Made by a program: the position numbers and the translations under genes. From an uncultured Microcaldota archaeon (lineage in GTDB: Archaea; Micrarchaeota; Micrarchaeia; Burarchaeales; Fermentimicrarchaeaceae): DNA of 58,921 nt. Shown here piece after piece: positions 20,045-54,446 of the stretch. The DNA lies in NCBI GenBank assembly GCA_903884505.1, contig CAISET010000025.1:1-58921 (forward strand), written 5' to 3'. Every line of letters begins with the position of its first letter. Positions within the stretch are counted from its first letter, which is position 1. Below the pieces are notes generated by a model. That model made no database searches, was not told where the DNA came from, and saw only the letters and a list, made by a program, of their open reading frames with translations.

Positions 20045-20971
20045 ATGAAGAAACTCACACCTCTCGCATTCGCAGCAATCTTCCTCTTCGGCTGCTGCAT
20101 GCCCGGGGGTTCAGCCGGCCCGTTCGACCTCGTTCCCGCATCAGCCACGTCAGTCGCAACCCTTTCCCCCTCCTCGGTCCTCAACGACCCCGATTTCGCA
20201 TACTTCTACGCAAAGGCGAATTCCAACAGAAGCATCAACGATGAGTTCGCCGCAATCACGGCGGCAACCGGCGTGCAGATGCGCAACGTAACCCTCGCAG
20301 TCCTCTTCAGCACCGGCACGGGTGCAGACCGCAAGAGCGCCGCATTCCTGCAGGGCGGATTCGACGCATCCGCCACCGAGCAGAGGCTCAGGTCCGACCC
20401 CTCCTGGAGCGCAACCGATTACGCTGGCTATTCCGTCTTCCGCAAATCAGGTGAAAACAATGCAATCGCATTCATCGATGGCAGCCTGCTGGTAGGCGCG
20501 CCATCCGCCGTGCAGTCCGCAATTGACGTGAAGAAAGGCACCGCGCAGAACATACGCAGCAACGCGGAGCTGATGGGCATCCTCAACAAGCTGAACACAA
20601 GCGCAGAACTCGTCTATGCCTCCGAATCCACTGGCGCCCTTCCCTCGGAGCTGACCTCCTCGCCCCTGAACGCATCCTTCTTCAGCGGGGTGCGCGCATC
20701 CGGCCTGGACATAAGCAAGAGGCTGGAAACGATTGATGTGAACGCAGTGCTTCTCACGGACAACTCAGTTGAGGCAGGAAAGCTGCAGGGCTCGCTCACC
20801 ACATTCGCCACGCTCGCAACCACCGTATTCGCGCAGCCTGTCGGCAGCCTTGCGGGCCTAATCGCAAAAATCCACATCTCTTCGGAAGGCGAATACGTGC
20901 TCATCTCGCTGCAGACATCCGTTGACGAATTGAAGGCAGCAGAAACAGAACTGAACACTCCTCCCGCCTAA
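20045..20971 (+). CDS. predicted lipoprotein, 308 aa
   Basis: Starts MKKLTPLAFAAIFLFGCC: a signal peptide with lipobox-like LFGC, so probably lipid-anchored outside the membrane. GGAG lies 8 bases upstream of the ATG. The mature part has alternating strands and helices (SATSVATLSPSSVLNDPDFA; AGYSVFRKSGENNAIAFIDGS; KIHISSEGEYVLISLQTSV), like the DUF3352-type periplasmic fold, though this is a weak resemblance. Its stop overlaps a decayed copy of the archease 3' end on the other strand. Confidence 0.7.
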   Translation: MKKLTPLAFAAIFLFGCCMPGGSAGPFDLVPASATSVATLSPSSVLNDPDFAYFYAKANSNRSINDEFAAITAATGVQMRNVTLAVLFSTGTGADRKSAAFLQGGFDASATEQRLRSDPSWSATDYAGYSVFRKSGENNAIAFIDGSLLVGAPSAVQSAIDVKKGTAQNIRSNAELMGILNKLNTSAELVYASESTGALPSELTSSPLNASFFSGVRASGLDISKRLETIDVNAVLLTDNSVEAGKLQGSLTTFATLATTVFAQPVGSLAGLIAKIHISSEGEYVLISLQTSVDELKAAETELNTPPA

Positions 20972-21055
20972 ATGTCAAGAAGCACCTGATTTTTCCAGAT
21001 CCTTCCTTCGCGCATGCTAAACGTCCAGCACCCAATTCCTCCAGAGCTTTCCTTC
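20968..21055 (-). repeat. two displaced, decayed copies of the archease 3' end
   Basis: Downstream of the archease stop the minus strand carries EGKLWRNWVLDV-stop (21017-21055), then a 7-base spacer CATGCGC, then EGRIWKNQVLLDI-stop (20968-21009). Both match the real C-terminus KGKWKIRVLLDI-stop with largely changed codons. CATGCGC equals part of the core of the hairpin elements found elsewhere in the window, so it may be an excision scar. Confidence 0.7.
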
Positions 21056-21068
21056 ACACCTGCCGCCT

Positions 21069-21494
21069 TCAGATATCCAGCAGCACCCTAATCTTCCACT
21101 TCCCCTTCTTCTCCTCAACTTTCAGCATTCCGTGGGTTACCCCCTTGACGACCGTCCTTCCAATTGCCGGGTTCATCTCAGAGCCGTGAGCCTTCCCTTC
21201 AATGAAAAACCCGCCTTCCCTCTTCCCGAAATTATCCACCTTGAACCTCTTCAAAAACAGCTCCTCCGCGTCCATCTCGCTCAGCAAATCGGAGAGCGTG
21301 AATGCGACCAGGTCCTCCAGATTATCCGCCTTATCGCTCACCTCAACCACTTTCCTTTCCCCGACCTTGCCTGCATCGCAAATCGTGCCGAACAAGGCGT
21401 CAGCCGCCGCTTCCAGCGCCTCCTCGAACGAGTCCCCGCTGGCCTCGAACAGCACATCCGCAGTATGCTCCAGGAATTTGTAGCTACCCGCCAT
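21069..21494 (-). CDS. archease (RtcB activator)
   Basis: 141 residues from the ATG at 21494, preceded by GGGAGGGGAG at a good distance; the upstream ATGs at 21500 and 21524 are less well placed. Contains YKFLEHTADVLFEASG, the archease N-terminal signature with the metal-binding Asp, and the conserved AIGRTVVKGVTHGMLKV. Archease accelerates the RtcB RNA ligase, which joins tRNA exons, and the window has interrupted tRNAs. It follows apgM by 47 bases in the same direction. Its 3' end has been duplicated twice downstream. Confidence 0.9.
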   Translation of the reverse strand: MAGSYKFLEHTADVLFEASGDSFEEALEAAADALFGTICDAGKVGERKVVEVSDKADNLEDLVAFTLSDLLSEMDAEELFLKRFKVDNFGKREGGFFIEGKAHGSEMNPAIGRTVVKGVTHGMLKVEEKKGKWKIRVLLDI

Positions 21495-21541
21495 AAACAT
21501 CTCCCCTCCCATCAAGTCTCGCATGCATGAAAAACCCGCAC

Positions 21542-28007: not shown

Positions 28008-28099
28008 TTGACTTTTTTCCCATGCGCCGTCGCTCATCAGCAGGGCGATTCGCTCTCGCTCTGCTCGCCGGCGCATATGGTAAAAACCTCAACTAAAAA
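28008..28099 (+). repeat. hairpin element E1 after tRNA-Ile
   Basis: Left arm TTGACTTTTTTCCC, core CATGCGCCGTCGCTC ... CTCGCCGGCGCATATGG with an extra AT bulge on the right side, right arm GGTAAAAACCTCAA, tail CTAAAAA. The arms pair 11 of 14 positions. Followed in tandem by E2. Confidence 0.8.
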
Positions 28100-28193
28100 T
28101 GACTTTTTTCCCATGCGCCGTCGCTCGCCAGCTTCAGCGGCTCGCTCTTCGCTGCGGCTCGCCGGCGCATATGGTAAAAACCTCAACTAAAAA
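28100..28193 (+). repeat. hairpin element E2, tandem copy
   Basis: Same ends as E1 (TGACTTTTTTCCC ... GGTAAAAACCTCAACTAAAAA in two parts) but a different loop. After it, GCTAGCGGAAAATGG looks like the tail of a further, lost element. Confidence 0.8.
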
Positions 28194-36789: not shown

Positions 36790-36893
36790 GCTCCGATCAT
36801 CTAGCTCGGTCAAGGATGCGGCCCTCTCAAGGCCGAAACCCGGGTTCAAATGGGAAATTCTCCGGAATTTTCCTGAATATCCCGGTCGGAGCA
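36790..36893 (+). tRNA. tRNA-Glu (CUC) with 29-nt intervening sequence in the T loop
   Basis: Acceptor GCTCCGA/TCGGAGC plus A; D stem ATCT/GGAT; anticodon stem CGGCC/GGCCG, loop CTCTCAA (anticodon CTC); T stem CCGGG/CCCGG. The T loop TTCAAAT is interrupted by 29 bases (about 36852-36880; ends ambiguous by 2) that form GGAAATTC-TCCG-GAATTTTCC. Splicing would restore a normal T arm. Could be an archaeal noncanonical intron or a small palindromic insertion. Confidence 0.85.
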
Positions 36894-36960
36894 CTTTTTT
36901 CGGTTGGCTACGCTCCTCGCTGCGCTCGTCGCTGCCATATCCGAAAAACCTGCACTAAAA
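36891..36960 (+). repeat. hairpin element E4 at the tRNA-Glu 3' end
   Basis: GCACTTTTTTCGG (whose GCA is the tRNA 3' end) ... core TTGGCTACGC/GCTGCCATATCCG ... right arm CCGAAAAACCTGCA, tail CTAAAA. The right arm's TGC complements the tRNA-derived GCA. Confidence 0.75.
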
Positions 36961-37035
36961 GCACTTTTTTCCGATGCTCCTCGCTCCGCTCGTCGCATAT
37001 CGTAAAAACCTGCACTAAAAAGCGGAGCACTTTTT
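36961..37035 (+). repeat. hairpin element E5 plus displaced tRNA-Glu 3' end
   Basis: Tandem second element GCACTTTTTTCCGATGC ... GCATATCGTAAAAACCTGCA, tail CTAAAA, followed by GCGGAGCACTTTTT (37022-37035). That last stretch repeats the tRNA 3' end and T-run, so it is the original terminator pushed about 135 bases away. Confidence 0.75.
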
Positions 37036-39287: not shown

Positions 39288-39433
39288 GGGCCCGTAGTCG
39301 AATGGCCCTTTTCCGAGCTCGCCGATGTTCCACGTCGGCTCGCGCGTAAAAGCGCCAGCGGAAAAGTGCTCGACAATGGTAAGACGTCAGTCTCACACAC
39401 TGAAGAGCGCCGGTTCGATCCCGGCCGGGCCCA
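39288..39433 (+). tRNA. tRNA-Val (CAC) interrupted in the D loop
   Basis: Acceptor GGGCCCG/CGGGCCC plus A; anticodon stem TCAGT/ACTGA with loop CTCACAC (anticodon CAC); T arm GCCGG TTCGATC CCGGC. The D arm GTC...GAC is split: after GTCGAATGG come about 74 extra bases ending CTCGACAATGG, then TAAGAC. Removal of 39306-39379 (or an equivalent shift) restores GTC-GAATGGTAA-GAC. Maturation needs splicing, unless the gene is dead. Confidence 0.85.
39306..39370 (+). repeat. hairpin element E6 inside tRNA-Val
   Basis: Left arm TGGCCCTTTTCCG (TGG from the tRNA), inner hairpin GAGCTCGCCGATG/CGTCGGCTCGC, right arm CGTAAAAGCGCCA, tail GCGGAAAAG. The right arm GCCA complements the tRNA-derived TGGC; the tail is the exact complement of CTTTTCCG. 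Confidence 0.75.
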
Positions 39434-39552
39434 TTTTCCGTTAACGCTTTTACGATATGGCAGCGAGTGAGCCCAGGTGCAGCTGCGCAACACCCGCAGG
39501 TGTTGCGGGAGACGCGCATTGGGTGCGAACGAGCGTTGCCATCGGAAAAGGG
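39434..39552 (-). repeat. hairpin element E7 after tRNA-Val (reverse orientation)
   Basis: Read on minus: TAACCCTTTTCCGATGGCAACGCTC (given in two parts: TAACCCTTTTCCG, ATGGCAACGCTC) ... CGCTGCCATATCG, right arm CGTAAAAGCGTTA, tail ACGGAAAAT. Contains an internal palindrome CAACACC...GGTGTTG. Fills the space between the tRNA and the promoter of the 39607 gene. Confidence 0.75.
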
Positions 39553-39606: not shown

Positions 39607-40167
39607 ATGGCACCAACCGCCGTGAGAAAGCAGAAAGATGACCTCCTGAAGATGAAGGTGGAAACAAAGTTCTGGGACATCTCCAACGGGGGGAAGGAGC
39701 TTAACGAAGGAATAGACCTAATGCTGAAAGCGCGGAAGGCGTCATCCTGGTTCGATAAGATACTGAACTATTACGAGAGGGCGATTGAGAAGTTCGGAGT
39801 GGCCTGGAAGAAATCGTCAGCCAAGTTTGAGGCGCACGGGGAAGGCGAGGCGGTCCTGAAAAACTCCGCGTACCTGGAGAAGCAGGCGTATTCCGAGCTT
39901 GCGGAAGTCTTCAGGGGCATGAGCAAGGAAGAGAAGGTAGATTTCCTCAACGAGATTGACAACGGGAACAGCCTAAGCAGCATATATGGGAGAAACGCCC
40001 CTGAACCTCTGAAATCTCCCAGCCACAGCACGGAAAAGAACGTGCAAAAATTCAACGACGACTGCGTGAAGTTCGTGGACAGGCTGGCAGAGATATGCGA
40101 GCGGCGCGCGAGAACGGAAGCGCAGCCCAAGGAAGAGAAACCTAAGCCTGCTCAAGCACTGCCTTAA
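39607..40167 (+). CDS. unknown helical protein, paralogue of the gene at 36053
   Basis: 186 residues starting MAPTAVRKQKDDLLKMK. Charged and helical, with SAYLEKQAYSELAEVFRGMS and DRLAEICERRAR blocks shared with the 36053 gene. The last residues (KPKPAQALP) are encoded by the strand opposite a displaced copy of the alaS 3' end (40142-40174), so this C-terminus was probably created or altered when the hairpin element entered alaS. Function unknown. Confidence 0.7.
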   Translation: MAPTAVRKQKDDLLKMKVETKFWDISNGGKELNEGIDLMLKARKASSWFDKILNYYERAIEKFGVAWKKSSAKFEAHGEGEAVLKNSAYLEKQAYSELAEVFRGMSKEEKVDFLNEIDNGNSLSSIYGRNAPEPLKSPSHSTEKNVQKFNDDCVKFVDRLAEICERRARTEAQPKEEKPKPAQALP

Positions 40168-40174
40168 TCCTTCG
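40142..40174 (-). repeat. displaced 3' end of alaS
   Basis: Minus-strand reading RRIKAVLEQA-stop, against RRIKAVLTEVA-stop at the true alaS end 113 bases away. Most shared codons are changed synonymously (CGA AGG versus AGG AGA; GCA GTG CTT versus GCG GTC CTG). Confidence 0.7.
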
Positions 40175-40286
40175 AGAAACCCCCGATGCGCAGGCTTGAG
40201 TCGCCTTCGGCGACAGCTGCGCAACTTCTGTTGCGCATCGCTCTTCGTTGCCAAACGAACTCGCTCGCCGCGCATATCGTCGGTTT
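40175..40286 (+). repeat. hairpin element E8 at the alaS 3' end
   Basis: Ends GAGAAACCCCCGATGCGC and GCGCATATCGTCGGTTTC pair with the family's AT bulge. The loop contains GTCGCCTTCGGCGAC and GCGCAAC...GTTGCGC sub-hairpins. It abuts the alaS stop codon. Confidence 0.75.
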
Positions 40287-48107: not shown

Positions 48108-51100
48108 GTGGGCATCAGAAGCAGTAATAATCGCGCTCAAGCCGCAATAGAATTCCTCATCACCAACGGTTGGGCTTCAGAACCCCCGATGCGCTGGCTC
48201 GCTCTTCGTTCCAAACGAACTCGCTCGCCGCGCATATCGTCGGTTCCTGAACCTCCGCACGGCAAAGGCCAGGCTGCCATAGAGTTTCTTATTACAAATG
48301 GCTGGGCCATCCTCGTAGTCGTCATTCTTCTTGCTGTCCTCTTCTACATCGGAGTCCTCAGCCCACAAAACACCACTCCGAACACATGCATGTTCCAACC
48401 GGGCTTCTCCTGCTACACTTTCAAAGTCGGGAATGTAACCGGTTCCCTGGAGCTGGACTTCGGCCAGGCAACGGGCAGGTCTATTCAAATCACAGGAATC
48501 TCCTGCTCCCAGAACTCGACTGCCGCACTCCATACGTCTCCCCTTACGGAAGACATCACAGTCCCAAGCGGTGAGCATAGGTGGATAGTCGGGGGAACTT
48601 CCCCCAACAACGCAACCTGCGAAGGTGCGACAGCCGAAGCAGGTGCGAGATACAAAGGAACGGCCTGCGTCAGCTACATCGAATCCGGCACCAACACCCA
48701 AAGGCTGGTCTGCGGAGACATAAACGCAAGGCTGGAGCCAGCAAGCGCAGTCCAGCCAGGCGGAAGCCCAACAGCAACGCCATATCCTACTCCGCCGCCG
48801 GGAGCGATAAGCCTTACGGAATGCGGTCAGGTTTACGACCAGCCAGGCTACTACTATACTGACACCGACATGAATGACACCGACGGCGGCACCTGCATAA
48901 CCCTGACCACGGGCGCCAGCAATTCAATCCTCGACTGCTACGGCCACACCATCGACAGCACCAACCGGTGGAGCGGCATGGGTATCCATCTGCAAAGCGC
49001 CACAAACGTAACCGTACGGCACTGCACAGTAACCAATTTCGGGTACGGTATCCTCCTGGAGTCCTCCAATGGCAATAACTTAATGGACAACACTGCCAAT
49101 TCGAATCAGTATGGCATATTCCTAAGCTCTTCAAGCGACAACACCATCTCTGGCAACACTGCTAACTCGAGCGGCAACGAGGGTATCACCCTAGGCTCTT
49201 CAAACAACAACATCCTCATTAGCAACACCGCCAACCTAAACAGCAACGGCATCTTCCTAGCCTATTCAACTGACAACAACCTCACGGGCAACATCGTCCT
49301 TGCGAACGGCAACTTCGGTATCTATGCGGACACCAGCAGCAATCTCCTCACGGGCAACACCGCATGCCAGAACAGTGTGTCTGACGTCCAATGCGGCGCG
49401 CCCCAGAGCGAGGGCAACGGCAACATATGCAAGCCATACGGGGACACCGTCTGTTCCGGCAGCATCACCTGTAACTCCGGCTGCCCGCCGCTTCCTCCGC
49501 CGACATGTGCACCCGGCTTTGTGGTAAGCTCCTGCGAATGCGTGCTGAATGCTGCCGGCAACTACACGATACAAAGCGACCTGAACTATTCGGGCTCCAA
49601 CGACTGCATAGACATTACGGCAGATGATGTGAAGCTCGACTGCCAGCACCACAGCATCACTGCGACGAGCGGCGGATCCACCGGCATCATGGTAGCCAAT
49701 TGGAATACCGGCAGCATAAGCGGGGTGGCTGTCAAAAACTGCAACGTGAACAGCTTCGGCACGGGTATCTACGTGTATGGCTTGAGCGGCGGCAGCATAA
49801 CCCGCAACACCGCAGAGTCAAATACTGGCGGCGGGCTCATTGTGCAGTCCTCTTCTGGCAACAATCTAACCGGCAATTCCGCAAACTCGAACGGCGACTA
49901 CGGCATCTACCTGGACTCAAGCTCCAGCAACACTCTCCTCACGGGCAACGAGTTCAATTCCAACGCCGGCCAGGGGATGTACATCCAGTATGGCGCAACT
50001 GGAATCACCCTCACTGGCAACATCGCCTGCTACAATATATACGGCAATATCATCTGCGACCAGCCCCAGAGTGACGGCAGCGGCAATATCTGCCTGCCAG
50101 AAGGCCCTGATGCAGCATGCTCCTCCAGCGTCGACTGCGGCTCCGGCTGCACGCCAAGCCCACCAGCATGCGCATCAGGCGGGGTGATAACCTCCTGCAA
50201 CTGCATAATCAATTCGCCGGGTGACTACACCCTTGGCGGCGACCTGGTTTACAACAGCTATTACAGTTGCGTAACCTTCGGCTCCGCTGCGAGCGGTTCA
50301 ACCCTTGACTGCCATGGCCACACCATCAGCGGCATTTCGCAGAGCGGCTACGGCGTCCACCTTATGGGCGCGACCGGAATTACGGTGGAAAACTGCAATT
50401 TCACCAACCTCGGGGGCGGCATTGAGCTGGAGAACGCATATGGAAACACAATAATGCACAACAACGCCACCTTGAACAGCTATGGCATCGGGTTCAACAA
50501 TGCAAGCGGCAATACTATAACAGACAATTATGCGGGCTCGAACTCCTATGCAGGCTTTGACGTGGAGATATCGTCAGGCAACACCTTCACCGGCAACACG
50601 GCCACGGCGAGCGGCCATAACGACTTCAGCTGCGGGTATGGCGGTGCGAACATCGACGGGGGCAACACCTGCAACAGCCAGACCGGCTGCGGCTGGCTCA
50701 CGAGCTGTCCATCCCAAACGAGCTGCAGCGGCACGACGCTCACCGACTGCTGCGCAATCACATCCCCCGGCAGCTATTCCCTGGGCAATGACCTGACTAC
50801 TTCTGGGACGTGCATAACACTAGCAGGTACAGCAGGCGGCTCAACGCTCGACTGTGGCGGCTACAGCATAACTAGGTCGGGCAACTACGATGGCGTCGGA
50901 GTCCTCGTGCAGGGCGCGGGAGGCGTCACAGTGCAGGGCTGCAGCATAAGCGGGTTCATGGAAGGCATCCACCTATATGCAAGCAACGGCAGCATGGTCG
51001 AAGGCAACACACTCACTTCGAACTGGGATGGCATAGTCCTTGACACTTTGAGCGGCACCACTATAACCGGCAACAGCGCCGGCGTCTTCCAGTCCGGCGG

Positions 51101-52721
51101 CAACGGAATCCTCCTATCCGGCTCGACTGGCAACACGGTAACGGGCAACAACGCCAGCTCGGTACAATACGGCCGCGGGATATACCTGCTGTCCTCGAGC
51201 AACAACAACGCCATCTCGGGCAACACCGTAAATTCAGACACCTATGGCATCTACACTGAACGTTCGGACGGCAACACCATCTCGGGCAACAACGCCAGCT
51301 CAAACCAGGTGGGCATCTACCTGGACCGGAACTCGGATGGCAACACCATCACTGGGAATACTGCAGAATCGAACAGTGGCGGCGGCATGCTCCTTGGCAG
51401 CTCGACGGGCAACACTGTCTCGGGCAACAACTTCGGCTCGAACCAATACGGCATCGAGCTGTACTCCGCTGCCGGCAACACCATAACCGGCAACACTGCC
51501 AACTCGAACCTGGAAAACGGCATCTATTCGCAGTCATTAAGCAGCAATACTTTCTCCGGCAACACCATCTGCAACAACCTGGATGGCGACATGAGCTGCG
51601 ATTCAACGCAGACCGACGGCACCGGCAACGCCTGCCAGACGCCCGACGCATGCGGGATCTCCTGCGACTCCAGCTGCCCGGCGCCTGAGCCGCCAGCCTG
51701 CGCTTCCGGCTGGGTCGTTCACTCCTGTCCATGCACCCTGTTCGTCCCAGGCGACTACACGATGGACAGCGACATTACCTATTCAGGCGGCAATTACCCC
51801 TACACCTGCATAACAATACCTACAGCCGGCAGCAACTCCACGCTCGACTGCCACGGGTACAGTATCAGCCGCTCGGATGGCAACGGCATCGGCATCAACC
51901 TCAATGGCGCAAGCAACGTCACGATTACGGACTGCGCGGTGCATGGCTTCGGGTATGGCATCTACCTGCAGGACTCGAACGGAAACACTTTCGCAGGCGA
52001 CTCTCCGACCGGCAACAACAACGACTTCTTCTGCAGCAGCTCCTCCTCGAACACCGATAGCAGCAACACCTGCTACACACAGAACGGCTGCAGCGACTGG
52101 CTCTCAAGCTGCCCACAGGCATACCCGACCTGCGGCAGCTCAATAACCGACTGCTGCAGGATAACCTCAACCGGCACCTACACGGTGCAGAACGACATAA
52201 CGACTTTCCGCTCCACATGCATAGAAATCAGTGGCAGCGGAGGCGGCCCCACTATCGACTGCCATGGCCACAGCATAACCGGGCCGGGCAAGCAGCGCAG
52301 CGGCACGATCGGCATCGCCTTCAGCGGCGGTGGGACGGTGCAGAACTGCAGCATCAGCAACTTCTGGACCGGCATCCTCGCAGCACACGAAGACGTGGTG
52401 TGGGACAACACGCTCAGCAACTGCGGCGGATACGGAATCCGTGCGTTCGGCGGAAACAATCTCATCACGCACAACACCGCCACCTCCAGCAACATAGGGA
52501 TAGAGCTGGAAAACTCCCTCAACACTGTCAGCAACAATAGCGTTAGCGGCAACAGGTATGGATTCGAGTTCTATTCTACGAGCGGCGGCAGTGTCGCCAA
52601 CAACTCGGCAACCGGCAATTCGGACAACGACTTCCGCTGCGAAAGCGGCGGCTCCAGCAACGACCTCGGGGGCAACATCTGCAGCAACAAGGATGACTGC
52701 GGCTGGCTCACCTGCCACTGA
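48108..52721 (+). CDS. giant class III-signal beta-helix surface protein with in-frame element
   Basis: 1537 residues from GTG 48108. It begins GIRSSNNRAQAAIEFLITNG, then a 31-residue foreign stretch (SEPPMRWLALRSKRTRSPRI ... SSVPEPP), then a second QAAIEFLITNGWA leading into the usual TM helix and the about 150-residue domain shared with the 23567 protein. Then come about six modules, each with a Cys-paired lead-in (TSCNCIINSPGDYTLGGDL type) and NosD/CASH beta-helix turns (SGNTITGNTANSN). Most likely exported and displayed on the cell surface. The mature signal is now about 44 residues from the N-terminus. Confidence 0.88.
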   Translation: MGIRSSNNRAQAAIEFLITNGWASEPPMRWLALRSKRTRSPRISSVPEPPHGKGQAAIEFLITNGWAILVVVILLAVLFYIGVLSPQNTTPNTCMFQPGFSCYTFKVGNVTGSLELDFGQATGRSIQITGISCSQNSTAALHTSPLTEDITVPSGEHRWIVGGTSPNNATCEGATAEAGARYKGTACVSYIESGTNTQRLVCGDINARLEPASAVQPGGSPTATPYPTPPPGAISLTECGQVYDQPGYYYTDTDMNDTDGGTCITLTTGASNSILDCYGHTIDSTNRWSGMGIHLQSATNVTVRHCTVTNFGYGILLESSNGNNLMDNTANSNQYGIFLSSSSDNTISGNTANSSGNEGITLGSSNNNILISNTANLNSNGIFLAYSTDNNLTGNIVLANGNFGIYADTSSNLLTGNTACQNSVSDVQCGAPQSEGNGNICKPYGDTVCSGSITCNSGCPPLPPPTCAPGFVVSSCECVLNAAGNYTIQSDLNYSGSNDCIDITADDVKLDCQHHSITATSGGSTGIMVANWNTGSISGVAVKNCNVNSFGTGIYVYGLSGGSITRNTAESNTGGGLIVQSSSGNNLTGNSANSNGDYGIYLDSSSSNTLLTGNEFNSNAGQGMYIQYGATGITLTGNIACYNIYGNIICDQPQSDGSGNICLPEGPDAACSSSVDCGSGCTPSPPACASGGVITSCNCIINSPGDYTLGGDLVYNSYYSCVTFGSAASGSTLDCHGHTISGISQSGYGVHLMGATGITVENCNFTNLGGGIELENAYGNTIMHNNATLNSYGIGFNNASGNTITDNYAGSNSYAGFDVEISSGNTFTGNTATASGHNDFSCGYGGANIDGGNTCNSQTGCGWLTSCPSQTSCSGTTLTDCCAITSPGSYSLGNDLTTSGTCITLAGTAGGSTLDCGGYSITRSGNYDGVGVLVQGAGGVTVQGCSISGFMEGIHLYASNGSMVEGNTLTSNWDGIVLDTLSGTTITGNSAGVFQSGGNGILLSGSTGNTVTGNNASSVQYGRGIYLLSSSNNNAISGNTVNSDTYGIYTERSDGNTISGNNASSNQVGIYLDRNSDGNTITGNTAESNSGGGMLLGSSTGNTVSGNNFGSNQYGIELYSAAGNTITGNTANSNLENGIYSQSLSSNTFSGNTICNNLDGDMSCDSTQTDGTGNACQTPDACGISCDSSCPAPEPPACASGWVVHSCPCTLFVPGDYTMDSDITYSGGNYPYTCITIPTAGSNSTLDCHGYSISRSDGNGIGINLNGASNVTITDCAVHGFGYGIYLQDSNGNTFAGDSPTGNNNDFFCSSSSSNTDSSNTCYTQNGCSDWLSSCPQAYPTCGSSITDCCRITSTGTYTVQNDITTFRSTCIEISGSGGGPTIDCHGHSITGPGKQRSGTIGIAFSGGGTVQNCSISNFWTGILAAHEDVVWDNTLSNCGGYGIRAFGGNNLITHNTATSSNIGIELENSLNTVSNNSVSGNRYGFEFYSTSGGSVANNSATGNSDNDFRCESGGSSNDLGGNICSNKDDCGWLTCH
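48138..48308 (+). repeat. element E9 with flanking 13-codon duplication
   Basis: Copy 1 (48138-48176) and copy 2 (48270-48308) both encode QAAIEFLITNGWA, but 11 of 13 codons differ, all synonymously. The element between runs from TCAGAACCCCCGATGCGC to GCGCATATCGTCGGTTCCTGA. Insert length 132 bases (44 codons), in frame with no stop. Confidence 0.85.
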
Positions 52722-52795
52722 CCCTTTTCCCAGGCGCAGCCAGCTCCGCGGGCGCCAGGTAAAAGCGTCAACGGAAAACGCCACTGACCCTTTTC
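52714..52795 (+). repeat. hairpin element E10 at the stop codon of the giant gene
   Basis: GCCACTGACCCTTTTC occurs at 52714-52729 (containing the TGA stop) and again exactly at 52780-52795. Between: core CCCAGGCGC...GCGCCAGG, right arm GGTAAAAGCGTCA, tail ACGGAAAAC. The right arm GTCA complements the stop-codon TGAC. The next 70 bases to the OB-fold gene show no gene. Confidence 0.75.
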
Positions 52796-53236: not shown

Positions 53237-53316
53237 TGAGCCTTTTCGGATGGCCACGCTCGCTCGCACCAGCAGGGCTCGCGCGCTGCCATATCCTAAA
53301 AGCCTCAAGGGAAAAA
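53237..53316 (+). repeat. hairpin element E11
   Basis: Left arm TGAGCCTTTTCGG, core GGATGGCCACGCTCGC ... GCGCTGCCATATCC, right arm CCTAAAAGCCTCA, tail AGGGAAAAA. It ends exactly at the stop codon of the displaced deoxyhypusine synthase fragment. Confidence 0.75.
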
Positions 53317-53397
53317 TTAGCCGAGCGCGCCAGCCATCATCAGGGGCAGCAAGATAGTCGCATCCCCGTCAACCGTCACATACCTCGCCTTCTCCTT
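53317..53397 (-). repeat. displaced 3' end of deoxyhypusine synthase
   Basis: Reads KEKARYVTVDGDATILLPLM then MAGALG-stop on minus. The gene itself ends KEKARYVTVDGDATILLPLM then LAGALY-stop at 53526. 24 of 26 residues agree, but most codons that can differ do differ. Flanked on both sides by hairpin elements (E11, E12). Confidence 0.85.
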
Positions 53398-53513
53398 TGA
53401 CTTTTTTCCCAATCGCCCGGGTTCACAGCCCGGCGATACGCGATTTGCGCTGTGGCGCAAATGCGCCCCTTTGCCCTTCGGGCAAATCGGGTGGTAAAAA
53501 CCTCAACTAAAAA
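53398..53513 (+). repeat. hairpin element E12
   Basis: TGACTTTTTTCCC ... GGTAAAAACCTCAA, tail CTAAAAA: the same ends as E1/E2 at tRNA-Ile, 25 kb away. The interior is different: sub-hairpins CCCGGG...CCCGG, TTTGCGC-TGTG-GCGCAAA and TTTGCCC-TTC-GGGCAAA. Inserted between the functional and displaced 3' ends of the deoxyhypusine synthase gene. Confidence 0.8.
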
Positions 53514-53525
53514 TCTTCAGATGAC

Positions 53526-54446
53526 TCAGTATAAAGCTCCTGCAAGCATGAGCGGAAGCAAGATTGTCGCATCTCCATCGACTGTGACGTAACGGGCTTT
53601 TTCTTTTACCTTTCCCCAGGAGACGGCCTCGGTCATCCGCGCCCCGCTCAGGCTTCCGTCATATTGGGAGGCAGTCGTAATATACACCGCATAATCCAGC
53701 CCGCCCTTGTACTGGTTCCACCAGATTACATGGTGCTTGGAGATTCCGCCGCCAATCATTAGCGCGCCGGTTTTCTTCGCCTCGAATATGAGGTTGCTCA
53801 GTTCGGTTTCGTCCTGAAGAAGGTTGACGCGGTATTTCGTGCCGTTCGCGAACGTAAACACGTTCGCCCCGAACGCCCCATCGAAAAACCCGGGGGCATA
53901 AATCGGAATGTTGTGCTTCGCAGCCTGGTGGAGAATAGACCCCTCATCCTTCACCCTTTTCCCGAACTCGTGGATGAGCTCCCTTCCTCCCCACTCCGGC
54001 TTCTGGGAATAAAGCTCCTTGAGGGTGGGCTGCATTCCGTTCTCCAGTGTCTGGCCGTAGTTCTTGTCCGGAATCAGGACATTTCCCAGCCTGTAAATAT
54101 GCTCGTGGTGCAGCTTCGCATCGTCCATCTCGAACTGCCCGGCGTAGTATTTGCCGCCCCATGCCCTCGCCAAATCATGGTCCATGGTCCCGCAGGTTGT
54201 AATCACCGCATCGAATTTCGGGACCATTTCCGCCAAAATGCCGCGCAAGCCGGTTGAGACAAGGCACGCGGGAAAGGAGAGGAAATTGGTGCATTCCTTG
54301 TCCGCGAGCATGTCCTTCACAATCTCGGAGCCGGTCGCGAGATGCTTCGCCCCGAACCCGCCGGCCTCCTTCATCTGCGCAACTATCTCCGAGGCAGGAA
54401 TGCCCTTCCGCAATTTCATATCCTTTACTTCCTTTCCAAGCACCAT
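53526..54446 (-). CDS. deoxyhypusine synthase
   Basis: 306 residues. NAD-binding VITTCGTMDHDLARAWGG, catalytic loop ISKHHVIWWNQYKGGLDYAV with the active Lys, and ITTASQYDGSLSGA. It makes the deoxyhypusine residue on initiation factor aIF5A using spermidine, and is universal in archaea. The last about 26 codons (from SWGKVKEK on) have unusual codons (CGT, GGA, TTA, ACA) compared with the rest and with the displaced copy downstream. This suggests the 3' end was replaced when the element entered. Confidence 0.94.
   Translation of the reverse strand: MVLGKEVKDMKLRKGIPASEIVAQMKEAGGFGAKHLATGSEIVKDMLADKECTNFLSFPACLVSTGLRGILAEMVPKFDAVITTCGTMDHDLARAWGGKYYAGQFEMDDAKLHHEHIYRLGNVLIPDKNYGQTLENGMQPTLKELYSQKPEWGGRELIHEFGKRVKDEGSILHQAAKHNIPIYAPGFFDGAFGANVFTFANGTKYRVNLLQDETELSNLIFEAKKTGALMIGGGISKHHVIWWNQYKGGLDYAVYITTASQYDGSLSGARMTEAVSWGKVKEKARYVTVDGDATILLPLMLAGALY

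Follow-up and report, generated by a model that had tools for sequence, protein, structure and literature searches.

Stacked 3' ends of the archease gene in a Micrarchaeota genome, and displaced gene ends beside small hairpin elements

In fungal mitochondria, and with a few prophages, mobile DNA is known to replace the 3' ends of genes. The present analysis concerns an archaeal locus, the archease gene in a 58,921-nt stretch of DNA from an uncultured Micrarchaeota archaeon (contig CAISET010000025.1, or C25, hereafter the window), which belongs to a 1.5-Mb genome (G000) assembled in 37 contigs. There, three successive 3' ends of the gene stand in a row. The closest described systems are the fungal mitochondrial gene hybrids generated by mobile open reading frames (ORFs), namely atp6 in Allomyces and atp6, atp9, cox2 and nad3 in Glomus (PMC3630166). 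As at two genes of the archaeal genome, a foreign C-terminus adjoins the gene body, a mobile insert follows, and the native C-terminus is displaced downstream; the differences are mainly synonymous, and the native copy matches a close relative. The fungal hybrids are, however, mitochondrial and their inserts encode LAGLIDADG or GIY-YIG endonucleases, whereas the inserts described here are ORF-less hairpins of 75-140 bp in an archaeon, and none is left at archease.

A second parallel is offered by e14, a prophage that sits in icd of Escherichia coli, as the integrating DNA provides a new 3' end and the old one (163 bp) is a displaced relic (PMC6379469). Nevertheless, e14 is a complete prophage that has its integrase and true attachment (att) sites, while the elements here are tiny. 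Thaumarchaeal integrated elements and casposons, as presented in the part of the source drawn on here (PMC6563490), are also archaeal and target the 3'-distal part of protein genes; one insertion substitutes the stop codon of its target, and casposons insert in tandem at one target. They differ in being gene-bearing, with an integrase or a casposase and generally short att sites or target site duplications, and stacks of relic ends are not described in that part of the source.

In the present case, such replacement appears all over the chromosome of an archaeon, by hairpins too small for coding. Short non-coding hairpins that are apparently mobile, like those found here, have reportedly been observed in mitochondria, as double-hairpin elements or repetitive hairpin elements; to our knowledge, gene-end duplication is not part of their description. 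Relic ends are a datable record of how DNA was inserted, lost and exchanged between genes, and they provide a natural assay for the insertion machinery.

Three successive 3' ends of archease

The working archease gene ends in GKWKIRVLLDI-stop (copy 1), and two further copies of this end are found on the same strand, both inside the 101 nt that lie 3' of its stop codon (Table 1). The first-pass annotation had read three archease 3' ends in this place, and its coordinates, residues and 7-base spacer CATGCGC are all reproduced; the three successive stop-anchored ends are confirmed as real. With global DNA alignment, not one of 2000 shuffles matched the real score for copies 1 and 3, nor for copies 2 and 3, and copies 1 and 2 gave P=0.005 against shuffles. 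At the protein level, the stop-anchored score of copy 3 against the archease C-terminus is 36, a value not reached in any of 700 other downstream regions. A chance resemblance owing to biased DNA composition, excluded by these permutation tests, retains a negligible probability. Past the stop, the repeat unit continues for another 14 nt or so (AGGCGGCAGGTGT following copy 1, GGCGGGAGGAGTGT following copy 3). Copies 2 and 3 share a start point, GAAGGA, located 12 nt ahead of TGG.

Comparing the region downstream of archease in relatives, as had been proposed, indicates which end is the old one. The order phosphoglycerate mutase, archease, convergent lipoprotein-like gene is retained in relatives, with no gap whatever between the last two. 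In the relative G003, whose archease is 67% identical, the archease stop overlaps that of the convergent gene, with zero gap; in the window, the stop overlapping that of the convergent gene (20971) is that of copy 3. Copy 3 is therefore the old end by position, and the DNA that holds copies 1 and 2 has been added.

Table 1. Position of the features discussed, in window coordinates unless another stretch is named.
Feature	Coordinates	Strand	Remarks
Archease coding sequence	21069-21524	minus	PF01951 match, E=5e-32; ORF list
Copy 1, working archease end	21110-21069	minus	
Spacer from copy 1 to copy 2, 13 nt, AGGCGGCAGGTGT	21068-21056	minus	resembles post-stop sequence of copy 3, GGCGGGAGGAGTGT
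Copy 2 of archease 3' end, EGKLWRNWVLDV-stop	21055-21017	minus	one codon fewer
Spacer from copy 2 to copy 3, 7 nt, CATGCGC	21016-21010	minus	
Copy 3 of archease 3' end, EGRIWKNQVLLDI-stop	21009-20968	minus	ancestral stop/stop overlap with convergent gene
Convergent lipoprotein-like gene, conserved archease neighbour	20045-20971	plus	tblastn 34% identity, E=4e-39 in G003; found in five relatives
Candidate displaced 3' end of upstream phosphoglycerate mutase gene, MHARLDGRGDVYGG-stop, overlapping archease start	21484-21528	minus	borderline; DNA local score 14, 2.25 expected among 657 genes
Deoxyhypusine synthase, foreign working end LMLAGALY-stop	53526-54446	minus	PF01916; GC3 drop at 0.67th percentile of 601 genes
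Hairpin separating the two deoxyhypusine synthase ends, new and old	53398-53515	plus	fold z-score -4.6
Displaced native deoxyhypusine synthase end, LMMAGALG-stop	53317-53403	minus	agrees with G003, both in the end and in the neighbour downstream of it
Second-type hairpin between alanyl-tRNA synthetase ends	40175-40286	plus	fold z-score -4.6
Displaced native alanyl-tRNA synthetase end, RRIKAVLEQA-stop	40142-40174	minus	G003 end RRIKAVLEPAK-stop, similar codons
Hairpin-family copies	39304-39368, 39432-39551, 28009-28193, 36893-37021, 52720-52780, 53240-53316; L047-L077; L183-L200		

Displaced ends and hairpin elements at other genes

At two other genes of the window, deoxyhypusine synthase and alanyl-tRNA synthetase, 3'-end replacement with an element is shown, by the same reasoning as for the fungal mitochondrial hybrids (PMC3630166). 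Both have the same layout, in which the gene body is followed by a diverged new end, a hairpin and the native old end. The deoxyhypusine synthase protein is 91% identical to that of G003, the nearest relative, and the displaced end has residues and codons in common with G003. Between working and distal ends, 20 synonymous and 3 non-synonymous codon differences are counted. The working end is foreign in its codon usage: the GC content at third codon positions (GC3) is 0.39 there versus 0.72 in the body, and the shift starts roughly where the element cuts the old end. This breakpoint is soft, since over its first eight codons the new end resembles G003 no less than the old end does. The donor of the working end was not found; its residues resemble G002, but its codons do not. 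For alanyl-tRNA synthetase, the distal end has the G003 codons (ATTAAGGCxGTGCTTGAG), whereas the working end has not.

More generally, a gene-free hairpin separates the working from the distal end at several genes. A first type, present in about fifty copies in the genome, is located at deoxyhypusine synthase, TIM (L123), an OMP-decarboxylase fusion (L112) and a DUF357 gene (L124), and a second type at alanyl-tRNA synthetase and two other loci (L102 and L108). The duplicated end halts at the left boundary of the element and usually picks up 0-2 nt past its right boundary. At the loci examined, it is the distal end that is ancestral and that retains the former overlap with the neighbouring gene: junctions are kept with a dihydroorotase start (L112), a pyruvate dehydrogenase E1-like gene (L102) and a Trm1 start (L124), the last of these being shared with G003. 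For dihydroorotase, E1 and Trm1, the names are presumed from our own reading of the translations, not from tool annotation. At L124 15120-15260, two near-identical ends (MLEYGEK-stop) flank a structured, unrelated insert, about 110 nt long, which suggests that more than one element type produces such end duplications.

A search of the genome for tandem partial 3' ends, also proposed at first pass, was carried out on 773 kb, or about half of the genome, as separate stretches. At the DNA level, the 3' end is repeated within 200 bp in 16 of 657 genes, for 0.33 expected; two of these cases are repetitive proteins or weak, leaving at least fourteen in the sampled half. A stop-anchored C-terminus scan of downstream frames gave 11 genes scoring at least 25 (0.53 expected). 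The stretches were partly picked around element hits, and the genome-wide rate of about 2% may thus be somewhat high. Triple-end stacks occur at two further genes, the DUF357 gene (L124 8714-10009) and L116 12523-15402. The same DNA-level scan found 1 case among 360 genes in G001, 1 among 296 in G002 and 2 among 178 in G003, the excess of G000 over G001 and G002 together being significant (Fisher P=0.001). A first scan of the G002 and G003 stretches carrying element motifs gave zero stop-aligned tandem ends. In G003, the DNA scan detected a gene end repeated in tandem over 34 bp, in which 20 nt of spacer and no element separate the copies (L200, 2568-3266 and beyond), and the process behind tandem ends therefore extends beyond this genome.

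Origin of the archease stack

We lean towards reading the archease locus as a stack of displaced ends, produced by the process that gave rise to a dozen or more further tandem 3' ends, through two rounds of insertion at one point and subsequent loss of the inserts. In such a process, DNA would be inserted near the 3' end of a gene along with a second copy of that end; the gene would retain a working end, and the original one would be shifted downstream with its old neighbour junction. The second end may be made by staggered cutting with fill-in, yielding a long target duplication. Only insertions whose duplication spans the stop codon would then survive, which would explain why insertions are found at 3' ends. 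Diverged ends could result when lineages exchange DNA through homologous recombination that spans an insertion already in place. At archease, the identical start of copies 2 and 3 would point to two rounds at the same place, and the later loss of the inserts may have left spacers such as CATGCGC.

The first-pass annotation had proposed repeated end replacement with loss of the element. This holds as a process of the genome, in view of deoxyhypusine synthase and alanyl-tRNA synthetase, and is plausible at archease itself; since no element is left there and the working end looks native, replacement is not demonstrated at this gene and 'end duplication' is the safer wording. Several observations weigh against the stack of displaced ends. 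The working end looks native by sequence (VEEKKGKWKIRVLLDI versus VEEKNGKWKIRLLLDI in G003, with the pattern VEEKxGKWKIRxLLDI common to G003), and its codon usage is normal. Copies 2 and 3 differ at codon positions 3/3/2, an even, relic-like spread, the third-position bias between copies 1 and 3 is weak (P=0.09), and the only DNA between the ends consists of the 13-nt and 7-nt spacers, without mobile DNA. The same is true of two enzyme searches: G000 has no match to Y1 transposase (PF01797; control genomes were positive) or to RVT_1 reverse transcriptase (PF00078), on which grounds IS200/IS605 mobilisation and retro-insertion, respectively, were rejected. A viral carrier was rejected as well, as IMG/VR contains neither an exact match to two element patterns nor an archease relative. 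Finally, CATGCGC had been taken as part of the hairpin core. ATGCGC/GCGCAT is indeed present in 5 of 13 element-free spacers (0.23 expected) and in several element arms, but this test is post hoc, the spacers having been picked once the motif had been seen.

The main rival is that the archease 3' end was tandemly duplicated twice, by slippage or staggered-break repair with fill-in, and decayed neutrally, no element ever being involved. This is possible, though we give it clearly less than an even chance. An archease site without an element, the common start point of the copies, a unit continuing beyond the stop and differences between copies 2 and 3 at all codon positions are all in its favour, as are the several other genes with element-free tandem ends, including the nearly perfect array at L116 12523 and the case in G003. 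Nevertheless, the TGG-to-TGG periods are 55 and 46 nt, i.e., not constant, the two spacers differ too, and CATGCGC is unlike the post-stop sequence. In addition, repeat ends coincide with element boundaries at sister loci, and the codon-level divergence of the ends at two loci is beyond what duplication alone gives. Identical codons and a fixed period had been named at first pass as the mark of simple tandem duplication; the archease copies do not bear this mark, although a diverged tandem duplication may have occurred. An assembly artefact, in which alleles of several strains were joined at gene ends or repeats, is improbable: the named relatives, Fermentimicrarchaeum among them, are metagenome-assembled genomes, the present assembly is in many contigs and hairpins are repetitive, but sixteen loci are concerned, several of them repeat-free, the ends adjoin conserved neighbours, and an independent assembly (G003) has a case. 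That the extra ends have been retained for a role as terminator, in mRNA 3' structure or in regulation is even harder to credit. The archease gap does fold weakly better than shuffles (z = -1.7); against this, copy 2 is one codon short, copies 2 and 3 have diverged neutrally, and relatives are gapless between archease and the convergent gene.

tRNA-associated hairpins and annotation of the window

A recurrent hairpin family has the core N3-CCCTTTT..AAAAGCG-N3'-R-CGGAAAA, where R is the last base of N3. The triplet before the element is the reverse complement of an internal triplet in 28 of 28 copies here, with 9 different triplets, and in 22 of 24 in G002 and G003. Many copies are inside tRNA genes, in anticodon loops and at other positions, order-level relatives included. 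Besides G000, the genomes rich in elements are G002, G003, G012, G014 and G015. For instance, a tRNA-Val(CAC)-like gene at 39290-39438 has its D-loop interrupted by a family element flanked by TCGAATGG and TCGACAATGG. The family has no Rfam match, and the Rfam search of the window returned tRNAs only. The family resembles a mobile tRNA-intron core that carries a guide; the elements had initially been read as bulge-helix-bulge introns or as IS605-like single-strand transposons, and neither gave a clean fit. A more speculative and rather doubtful proposal is that ORF-less hairpins, kin to the tRNA introns of this lineage, insert by means of a guide whose three letters complement the target flank, and that a second 3' end is either brought along or created. 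Repeated insertion and loss would leave relic ends in stacks at some 2% of genes, archease included.

Relic ends also account for misleading annotations, such as the predicted N-terminus of archease (MRDLMGGEMF), which is probably spurious and probably corresponds to the displaced phosphoglycerate mutase end listed in Table 1. The PF01951 match starts at residue 15, the G003 archease starts at MKSHRFLEHTAD, and the true start in the window is probably ATGGCGGGTAGC, near 21494.

Two other repeats were noticed in the window. In a pilin-like gene (48108-48330), QAAIEFLITNGWA recurs at the N-terminus on both sides of an insert, where the same process may have acted on a 5' end. At the contig edge (1-1700), an array of repeats of about 90 bp probably codes for HEAT/PBS-like units.
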